From Kitasatospora sp. MBT63 (GTDB lineage Bacteria; Actinomycetota; Actinomycetes; Streptomycetales; Streptomycetaceae), in contig NZ_JAIZ01000113.1 in the NCBI RefSeq assembly GCF_000710465.2, forward strand, positions 1-58,225: a stretch of 58,225 nt of DNA, in the 5' to 3' direction. Position numbers and translations under genes: made by a program. Within the stretch, counting starts at the first letter, position 1, and each line of letters opens with the position of its first letter. The notes under the pieces were generated by a model. The model ran no database searches, had not been told where the DNA came from, and saw only the letters and a list, made by a program, of their open reading frames with translations. Positions 170-2,012 of the stretch are shown here, piece after piece.

Positions 170-718
170 TCACCCCAGAGCGACCTCCACGTCCCGCTCG
201 ACCTCCGCCGGATCGAGACCCGCGTCACGCACCACCCGCACCGCCAGCCCACCACCTTCACGCAACAGGCCGAGCAGCAGGTCACCGGCCTCCAGCCGGC
301 GGCTCCCCCGGCCGACGGCCGCCTGCAGGGCCAGCGTCAGGGTCTTCTTCGCGCGGTCCGTGAACCGGATCGCACCCCGGCGCCGGTTCGTGGACGGTCC
401 GGGCGCCGGATCGAGCGCCCCCGCCCCGAAATTCGCCTCGACCGCCTCCCGAACCGCGGCGAGGTCGATGCCGATCGCCGCCAGCGCCTGCCCGTCGACC
501 TCGCCCCCGGGGCCGCCGAGCAGCCGCAGCACCGCCCGGCGGGCGGCCTCCTGGTCCAGCCCGGCGTCGACGAGGACCGCCGCGGCCGGGTCCGGCCTGC
601 GGCCGAGCACGCCGAGCAGCAGGTGCTCGGTCCCGACGTACGGGTGCCCCATCCGCTCGGCCTCCAGCCGGGCCAGGGTCACGACCTGGCGAGCACCCTC
701 CGAAAATCGCTCGAACAT
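170..718 (-). CDS. Free-standing ClpC N-domain protein (ClpC2-like)
   Basis: This 182-residue protein consists of the double Clp N-domain (Clp_N) with no AAA+ module. Repeat 1 (about residues 1-75) starts MFERFSEGARQVV and carries YVGTEHLLLGVL, almost as in the N-terminus of the full ClpC ATPase. Repeat 2 (about 108-182) starts IRFTDRAKKTL and carries LEAGDLLLGLL, where the usual EH pair is lost. In ClpC this domain binds adaptors, phosphoarginine-tagged substrates and antibiotics such as cyclomarin. Without an ATPase it can only bind, so it may act as a decoy, sponge or regulatory partner. The ATG follows the stop of the upstream HTH gene by two bases (TGACCATG), so the two are surely co-translated. 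Together they add up to about 258 residues, close to the single-chain mycobacterial ClpC2 (about 252, from memory). The domain call is firm; the role is inference. Confidence 0.88.
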   Translation of the reverse strand: MFERFSEGARQVVTLARLEAERMGHPYVGTEHLLLGVLGRRPDPAAAVLVDAGLDQEAARRAVLRLLGGPGGEVDGQALAAIGIDLAAVREAVEANFGAGALDPAPGPSTNRRRGAIRFTDRAKKTLTLALQAAVGRGSRRLEAGDLLLGLLREGGGLAVRVVRDAGLDPAEVERDVEVALG

Positions 719-720
719 GG

Positions 721-951
721 TCAGTCCTCTCCGATTCCCGACAGCTTGCGCGCGTACTTCTTGTGCACGGCCTGCCGGGTGACCCCCAGGCAGACCGCGA
801 TCTCGTGCCAGGACCAGCCCCGGCCACGGGCATTGCCCACCTGGAGCTCTTCCAGCCGGTCCGCCAGGTCCCGCAGGGCCCGCACCGCCCGCAGCCCGAC
901 GGCCGGGTCGCTGCCGCCCGCGGCCTCCGCGAGTTGCTTCGTTTCGCTCAT
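721..951 (-). CDS. Small helix-turn-helix protein, probable autoregulator of the Clp-N pair
   Basis: This 76-residue protein has an N-terminal helical stretch and then a helix-turn-helix of the type SWHEIAVCLGVTRQAVHKKY (about residues 47-66). The same signature (SWxxIGxxxGVxxQAxxKRF) occurs, from memory, in the N-terminal part of mycobacterial ClpC2 and in many actinobacterial Clp-N proteins. Here it is a separate gene immediately before the Clp-N gene. Two GTCAAC-N4-GTTGAC palindromes sit just upstream of the ATG, the expected place for autorepression. The protein is likely a DNA-binding dimer whose activity could be set by the downstream Clp-N protein. No other enzymatic feature is visible. 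Confidence 0.8.
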   Translation of the reverse strand: MSETKQLAEAAGGSDPAVGLRAVRALRDLADRLEELQVGNARGRGWSWHEIAVCLGVTRQAVHKKYARKLSGIGED

Positions 952-954
952 GAT

Positions 955-998
955 GTCAACCTAGGTTGACGACCCGGATGTGTCAACCCTCGTTGACA
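955..998. promoter_or_regulatory. Twin palindromic operator upstream of the HTH/Clp-N pair
   Basis: Site 1 is the perfect 16-base palindrome GTCAACCTAGGTTGAC (955-970). Site 2 is TGTCAACCCTCGTTGACA (981-998), with seven-base arms around CCTC. Both have the form GTCAAC-N4-GTTGAC, and their centres are 27 bases apart. They lie 4 to 47 bases upstream of the HTH start codon, so a bound protein would block transcription of the pair. Site 1 also contains the stop codon of the upstream beta-propeller gene. That the small HTH protein binds here is inference from position. Confidence 0.7.
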
Positions 999-2012
999 AC
1001 CCTGCCGCACCCGTGGCCCACCCCAGCGCCAGCCCCTTCAGCGTCCCCTTCCCCGAGACGGCCACCCGGCCCCCACCCAAGCCGTGCAGCGCGGAGATCC
1101 GCCGGCCCACCGGCTGCCGCCCGAGCACCCGGCCGTCGGCGTCCAGCCTCAGCAGCGACCCGCCCTCGTCGGCCACCACGAAGCCACCGCCGACCTCGGC
1201 GACACCCCACGCCGACGCGCGACCGCCGGCCACGGTCCACAGCCGCCGTCCGTCGGCCGGATCCACCGCCACCCACCCGGCCCGCCGCTCCCGGAGCCAC
1301 AGCACCGCGCCGCACAGCTCGGGTGCCCGAGCCGCCAGGTCCGCGTCGTGCGAGAACCAGCTCCCGGCCGTCCCCGCCGAACGCCGCAGCAGCACCAACG
1401 CCCGCGGGTCGCACCGCACCACGCAGCGGTCGGGGTCGAGCGCGGTGAACACGGGCTGCAACTCCGCGTCCGCCACCGCCCCGTGGGCTGCCGCTCCGGG
1501 CAGGCGCCCCCGGGCGAGCTCCGCGCCGGTGCGCGGGTCGACCAGCCACACATCGAGGCCCGAGCCGCACAGCACCCCGCCGCCCCAGACAGCGGGTGCC
1601 CCGTACGCACGGGCTCCGTTCCGCGCCACAGCGGCCGCCCGTCCCCCAGGTCGAACGCGGCGAGCGGGGTGTATCCGCGCCACCCGCCGACCAGCACCAC
1701 GCCGTCCGCCACCACCAGATGACCGGTGTGCCGGGGCAGCCGGGCGCTCCACACCACCGTTCCGTCGGCCAGGTCGCGGCAGTCCAGGGTGTCCGGCGCC
1801 TGGGGCAGCACCAGGCACCGCCCGTCGGCGACCACCACCGCGCGCAGCCAGGTCCCCCCGGGCACGTCCCAGCGCGGGGCCCCGTCGCCCGCGTCCAGAC
1901 CGACCAGCCGGGTCCGGCGCTCGTGCACCACCACCAGGCCATCGCCCGCCGCCACCGCCGAGTGCGCCCCCGACTGATGAAGTGCCCGCTCCCAGAGCGT
2001 CTCCACGATCAT
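961..2012 (-). pseudogene. PQQ-like beta-propeller protein, interrupted by a frameshift
   Basis: Two overlapping minus-strand frames together give one beta-propeller protein of about 350 residues. The first part (2012 to about 1602) has propeller blades such as DAGDGAPRWDVPGG, DLADGTVVWSARLP and DLGDGRPLWRGTEP. After a shift, the second part (about 1600 to 961) continues with APAVWGGGVLCGSG, DPADGRRLWTVAGG and further blades to the stop at 961. The break falls in a run of four C on the plus strand (1599-1602). One extra base there would join VRTG to APAVWGGG without a gap. It is therefore either a recent pseudogene or a one-base homopolymer error in the sequence. Related PQQ-repeat proteins bind partners or act as scaffolds; no catalytic residues or signal peptide are visible. 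The ATG at 2012 has only a weak GGGTG-type ribosome site. Confidence 0.7.

Follow-up and report, generated by a model that had tools for sequence, protein, structure and literature searches.

Two genes on the minus strand of the window, by which we mean the whole stretch of 58,225 nt that was analysed, make up the module described here: a gene for a 76-residue helix-turn-helix (HTH) protein (721–951), whose open reading frame contains WHEIAVCLGVTRQAVHKK and has predicted helices at residues 2–11, 16–43, 48–55 and 59–71, and a gene for a stand-alone 182-residue double Clp N-domain (Clp-N) protein without an ATPase (170–718), which begins with MFERFSEGARQVV. The genes lie in different frames, separated by 2 nt (719–720). 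The sole Pfam match of the 182-residue protein at E≤1 was Clp_N (PF02861, E=7.6 × 10−20), and no AAA domain was found in it at that threshold. A previous sequence-only reading of this DNA had described the two genes 2 bases apart, the missing ATPase and palindromes upstream, all of which are confirmed. The recognition-helix core of the HTH protein, residues 58–66 (TRQAVHKKY), is encoded at 754–780 (minus strand), and a helical insert between the Clp-N repeats, residues ~68–103 with the motif ALAAIGIDL...FGAGAL, at 410–517 (minus strand). A PADLOC search of the module gave no match at E≤0.01; in PHROGs, the HTH protein matched HTH families (best 1 × 10−6) and the Clp-N protein matched phrog_35667. 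The HTH model had no confident match by Foldseek or VIA, the ClpC2 N-terminal domain and RelI both falling outside the 50 matches listed in either.

Upstream of the HTH gene lie a proximal operator, TGTCAAC-CTAG-GTTGACG (954–971), and a distal operator, TGTCAAC-CCTC-GTTGACA (981–998), each with a 4-nt spacer; the core GTCAACN4GTTGAC occurs twice in the window at ≤1 mismatch relative to 0.07 expected, and none of 100 shuffles reached two. A putative promoter (958–986), recognised by eye on the minus strand, comprises TTGACA (986–981) and, after 17 nt, TAGGTT (963–958), followed after 6 nt by the ATG (951–949). Because of these positions the distal operator would hold the −35 and the proximal operator the −10, and the transcript, starting at 951, would be leaderless. 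A generic sigma-70 scan of the window listed no promoter, and TAGGTT shares only three of six letters with TATAAT. Two operators 27–29 bp apart, with ≤1 mismatch each, were present in 166 of 179 unique loci of the same two-gene arrangement (hereafter split loci), most of the 166 repeating this layout of −35 and −10 within operators, and two sites were found in 38 of 41 unique loci that encode both parts in one chain (fused loci). In the module's own genome, exact cores numbered six (two at the module, two at ClpC2 and two single) relative to one for a reversed-pattern control, and sites with ≤2 mismatches numbered seven relative to four; one extra single exact site lies, by eye, inside an AsnC-type coding sequence. 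This own-genome search gave no evidence of a regulon beyond the module and ClpC2 promoters and, by the exact-core counts, the operator target of the HTH protein looks local.

The same genome also encodes a fused ClpC2 (L003, 1012–1761, minus strand; 249 aa), in which HTH and Clp-N parts form one chain and which has twin operators of its own with the core GTCAAC-n5-GTTGAC. Aligned with the ClpC2 profile (hhalign), the HTH profile gave 96.6% probability and E=4.8 × 10−10, with 42% identity over 53 columns that correspond to residues 37–89 of fused ClpC2, and the Clp-N protein gave E=1 × 10−25; the ClpC2 structure 8ada matched the HTH profile A1 with an E-value of only 0.005. These matches bear out the earlier proposal that the module is related to ClpC2, and the two open reading frames agree with its placing of sensor-like and DNA-binder-like parts on separate proteins. 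A careful Clp-N tree, built from 52 hand-picked rows of 377, rooted on the genome's own ClpC1 and omitting long-branch rows and the loci L414 and L416, resolved split (support 97/89) and fused (96/91) sequences as two sister clades. In a FastTree of 88 rows, fused ClpC2 formed one clade (98) nested among split rows, and a 315-row quick tree required three changes of arrangement and two of spacer. The suggested search for fused and split versions across actinobacteria recovered both forms, in separate clades of the careful tree. A broken-up ClpC2 is disfavoured as the origin of the split pair by these clades and by the presence of both forms in one genome. By profile and in the careful tree, the split pair is the unfused sister of the antibiotic-sensing repressor ClpC2. 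Two short relatives of fused ClpC2 (L413 and L418; open frames of 195–200 aa) have a Clp-N part that looks reduced, and odd-spaced operators.

The split two-gene HTH/Clp-N design is widespread in actinomycetes. Of 280 confident HTH relatives left after deduplication (E<10−15), 277 have a Clp-N gene next to the HTH gene. Matches to the HTH protein were found in 55 of 70 genomes of its own genus at E≤10−8 (three of the 55 with distant forms only) and in 170 of 197 genomes sampled from the order, and a class-wide profile search matched 235 of 394 genomes (E≤10−6), a figure that includes fused ClpC2. The remaining 15 own-genus genomes had no HTH match at E≤10−8, and the protein is therefore dispensable. 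A cross-tabulation of the 70 genomes gave 49 with HTH and fused forms, 12 with fused only, 6 with HTH only and 3 with neither; among the own-genus HTH matches, one is an orphan (G019, L131), one is accompanied by a broken Clp-N gene (G053, L112) and two belong to other subfamilies (G016, G068). Among the best 80 of at least 550 confirmed loci, the closest named HTH relatives are from Kitasatospora, and carriers include Streptomyces, Streptacidiphilus, Actinomadura, Herbidospora, Blastococcus, Cellulomonas, Actinoplanes and Saccharothrix. The gene nrdJ, separated from the module in the window by a PQQ/BamB-type β-propeller open reading frame (1149–2012, minus strand), adjoins at least 17 of 138 loci (10 in the own genus, 6 in Kitasatospora and 1 in Streptomyces), a lower bound as 58 of the 138 have only ~1.5 kb of flank; most recurrences of this neighbour are in Kitasatospora and the own genus. 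Among the open-licence papers listed, we found no description of the two-gene form; the ClpC2 operator and autorepression are already known.

Several variants accompany the main form. In G025, G028, G016 and G009 (L132, L133, L134 and L135, respectively) there is a further HTH/Clp-N pair whose genes overlap and whose n4 palindromes are lopsided, a GTCAAC half facing one that resembles AGCAAC or GGCAAC; the main pair is also present in G009, G025 and G028. HTH genes and operators are also found with a degraded (L112) or otherwise broken or unrecognised (L442) Clp-N partner and, at L131, beside a transposase-like frame. Five genomes of genus g70 (G360, G370, G448, G559 and G580) have 3–5 HTH-family matches each, fused ones counted too, which suggests an expansion of HTH-family genes in that genus.

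Split and fused operators have the half-site GTCAAC in common and differ in spacing by one base. After removal of duplicates, we counted spacers by searching for palindromes without a preset half-site sequence. At a score of ≥20, 253 of 277 unique split loci had an even-spaced pair of the n4 type and none an odd one, the remaining 24 scoring lower (19 even, 5 odd); at the same score, 122 of 128 unique fused loci had an odd spacer of the 5-nt type and 2 an even one, with 4 below 20. At ≤1 mismatch, the n5 form occurred in none of the split and the n4 form in none of the fused loci (196 and 43 loci, duplicates included, of which 4 and 1, respectively, had no site at this stringency). The two even-spaced fused loci, L414 (G348:C44) and L416 (G537:C74), represent one divergent fused lineage with GTCAA...TTGAC operators and are the sole exceptions at the score used. 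Because the rows are related and fall into two clades in the careful tree, the spacer rule is essentially one old difference that has been kept, not hundreds of independent ones. The palindromic operators noted in the earlier reading have the ClpC2 half-site and, in the spacer, n4 and not the n5 of ClpC2.

Within the recognition helix, residues 61 and 64 vary with bases 5 and 6, respectively, of the half-site. A clear operator pair was present in 379 rows, of which the 368 with a GTC half-site were tabulated and the other 11 excluded. Residue 61 and base 5 were combined as Ala/A in 342 rows, Ser or Thr/G in 22, Gly/A in 3 and Ser/A in 1 (raw Fisher P=1 × 10−31); with Lys at residue 64, base 6 was C in 320 rows and another base in 8, and in the 40 rows without this Lys it was C in 20 and another base in 20 (raw Fisher P=5 × 10−16). 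On supported branches of the tree, residue 61 yielded 3 independent pairs (on average 1.8 concordant, 0 discordant and 1.2 unchanged) and residue 64 yielded 4 (2.2 concordant, 0.0 discordant and the rest unchanged), and with so few pairs the association cannot reach significance on the tree. The case that the HTH protein reads the paired operators, from which we infer binding itself, is good but not conclusive.

The same helix falls into a gap in the structural record of ClpC2. The segment GVTRQAAQKRFV of fused ClpC2 aligns with GVTRQAVHKKYA of the window HTH protein and lies in a region that is among the most conserved stretches of the fused protein (12 sequences). Among the solved chains matched by the ClpC2 profile, 8ada stops at profile position 71 (chain residue 72, its last) and 9p2p, 8ad9 and 8b9o (the last being ClpC2 of M. 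smegmatis) start at position 88 or later, so that the recognition helix is covered by none of them. According to excerpts of the ClpC2 study (PMC10030653), the 8ada fragment was produced by proteolysis, the DNA contact was assigned to the Clp-N part through R185 and R189, with less efficient DNA binding by the R185/R189 double mutant, and the need for a ClpC2 dimer in tight DNA binding is supported by a dimerisation mutant and by the C-terminal part on its own. In our alignments, 100 of 124 fused sequences have Arg and 13 have Lys at the R189 position, and 69 of 252 split ones have Arg. Base reading by the HTH with assistance from these arginines can reconcile helix reading with the R185/R189 data; an HHpred match between RelI and ClpC2 in the HTH region had already been noted in a passage of the RelI report (PMC13284704). 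On balance we lean towards the view that actinomycetes have retained an ancient pair of distinct Clp-N sensor circuits, a fused one and a two-part one, insulated by one operator base, in which DNA would be read by the HTH, so that the recognition helix of ClpC2 would be the proteolysed stretch after residue 72 and not a Clp-N surface.

The model of the 182-residue protein (pLDDT 88) is a ClpC1-type N-domain, matching the ClpC1 N-terminal domain 8ibo with Z=24.8 (1.3 Å, 136 residues, 42% identity) and the ClpC2 domain 8ad9 with Z=16.6 (3.0 Å, 135 residues, 31%). At the cyclomarin-contact residues named in the ClpC2 excerpts, F2, F80 and E89 in ClpC1 numbering (PMC10030653), the window protein has Phe, Phe and Thr. 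These residues are retained in 218, 205 and 183, respectively, of 252 split Clp-N sequences, and in 113, 73 (with Tyr in a further 48) and 113 of 124 fused ones. On these alignments the groove residues are kept in most of the split Clp-N family and, by analogy with ClpC2, antibiotic sensing by the split module is possible. Sensing of a phosphoarginine-marked client, as formerly suggested, is not supported: for the phosphoarginine glutamates E32 and E106, as given in part of PMC12583610, the window protein has Glu and Gly. A search for PF00217 (ATP-guanido kinase) found no match in the own genome, and none in any control genome either. Clp-N proteins also occur in mycobacteriophages: Myrna gp251 (L452; also in phage Phabba) has 34% identity over residues 1–122, and no HTH annotation is found among its neighbours in the stretch inspected. 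Matching phage records number 11 in all, some unannotated or fecal; the mycobacteriophage Clp-N proteins are annotated ‘ATP protease' or ‘Clp family protein', and might interfere with host ClpC1.

The insert motif is typical of split Clp-N proteins (224 of 253 sequences) and rare in fused ClpC2 (3 of 124, 2 of these 3 having it in the second repeat). Mean-field covariation between the HTH and Clp-N proteins (245 paired rows, effective 150) gave twelve best couplings that exceed those of six pair-shuffles, a control in which shuffling also destroys phylogeny. The insert accounts for 12 of the 20 top couplings relative to 36 of 175 columns, and its share of the top 20 across four runs was 12 in the full set, 12 without Streptomyces-type rows, and 10 and 4 in two 70% subsamples. 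Covariation of this kind is no more than suggestive of an HTH–Clp-N contact, perhaps through the insert.

We consider it about an even chance that the module is an autorepressed two-protein sensor and sponge for Clp-N ligands. The elements of this scheme that were read in the sequence are the gene pair, the operators in the putative promoter, the spacing rule, the helix/half-site association and the groove conservation. The HTH protein would dimerise, occupy both 4-nt-spaced operators and so silence its own operon at the promoter; the Clp-N protein, translated from that same transcript, would dock on the HTH protein, perhaps through the inserted helical hairpin. We infer both this complex and its docking site, and contact is favoured because the fused ClpC2, in the same genome and with the same half-site, acts as a ‘Rosetta stone'. 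Solely by analogy with ClpC2, filling of the groove by an unfolded client or a natural ClpC1-targeting peptide would release the repressor and induce the operon, and surplus free Clp-N would soak up ligand and spare ClpC1. The system would run beside fused ClpC2, kept apart by operator spacing of 4 relative to 5 nt. The available portions of two reports state that ClpC2 represses itself and that cyclomarin relieves the repression (PMC10030653), and that in M. tuberculosis ecumicin- and ilamycin-type peptides bind ClpC2 without inducing it, only a cyclomarin analogue having raised the protein (PMC12913811). Points against the sensor/sponge are the absence of E89 from the window Clp-N protein, the small number of independent changes behind the helix/half-site association, the unstable insert covariation, the failure of ecumicin- and ilamycin-type peptides to induce ClpC2 and the absence of an HTH match from 15 of 70 genomes of the genus.

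The HTH protein may instead be a plain autorepressor that acts alone, with Clp-N no more than a decoy or holdase under its control and another signal, such as HTH proteolysis by ClpC1P1P2, causing induction. Its long predicted dimer-type helix and full recognition helix fit this account, and it can explain the operators by itself; we nevertheless hold it to be unlikely, as the almost invariable pairing (277 of 280), the fact that a fused form exists and the twelve couplings above the shuffles, in a control that does not preserve phylogeny, favour contact. Improbable, in our judgement, is a Clp-N protein that serves as an anti-repressor, with free Clp-N removing the HTH protein from DNA and repression returning once Clp-N binds a client: two separate proteins would permit such titration and the results here agree with either sign of the Clp-N effect, but ClpC2, the nearest studied relative, works the opposite way in the excerpts of its description (PMC10030653). 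A toxin–antitoxin-like pair, with the HTH protein as RelI-type antitoxin and Clp-N as effector, is very improbable, since the partner has a Clp-N fold (Z=24.8 to the ClpC1 domain) and not that of a nuclease, even though antitoxin RelI is the closest PDB match of HTH profile A1 (9sdc, E=4 × 10−5). The HTH gene comes first in the pair, matching the antitoxin-first order that is common in toxin–antitoxin pairs. Strong inverted repeats lie upstream here, whereas relS-relI is described as having no likely ones in part of its report (PMC13284704).

The sensor/sponge reading bears on ClpC1 as a tuberculosis drug target, ClpC2 being a known rescue system against one class of ClpC1 inhibitors. A natural two-part version separates DNA binding from ligand binding, so that each is testable alone in harmless organisms, and the split form predicts which ClpC2 residues read the operator and helps to locate its DNA-reading part. 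Furthermore, the rule of 4 relative to 5 nt offers a simple and testable case in which cross-talk between paralogous repressors that share a half-site could be avoided. If the reading is true, it provides a likely regulator for a gene pair common in antibiotic-producing actinomycetes.

Among known systems, ClpC2 (mycobacterial Rv2667 and the fused L003 paralog) has in common with the module the HTH and Clp-N parts, the half-site GTCAAC, the lack of an ATPase, and two operators over the −35 and −10 with the start codon a few nucleotides downstream, a layout assigned to the module by sequence only; the ClpC2 operator is given in the excerpted study as CGTCAAC-n5-GTTGACG, often doubled, over −35/−10 and leaderless (PMC10030653). 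ClpC2 differs in being one chain and not two proteins, in its 5-nt rather than 4-nt spacer, in having, in nearly all cases, no helical insert between the Clp-N repeats, and in its separate clade in the careful tree. The antitoxin RelI (Rv2664, PDB 9sdc) has a related HTH with a TRQA-type helix, but its partner is the RNase toxin RelS, whereas the neighbour of the module HTH is Clp-N and no RelS-type toxin; the RelI relatives named in part of that report are RelS-paired or fused to DUF3887 or DUF2812, with no Clp-N-paired ones among them (PMC13284704). The ClpC1 N-terminal domain has the fold of the 182-residue protein, which lacks the AAA+ modules of ClpC1 and carries the extra helical insert. 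ClpC3 of M. smegmatis, a small Clp-N protein likened to that of the module by description only, is said in a section of a review to share the ClpC1 ligand site (PMC10864484).
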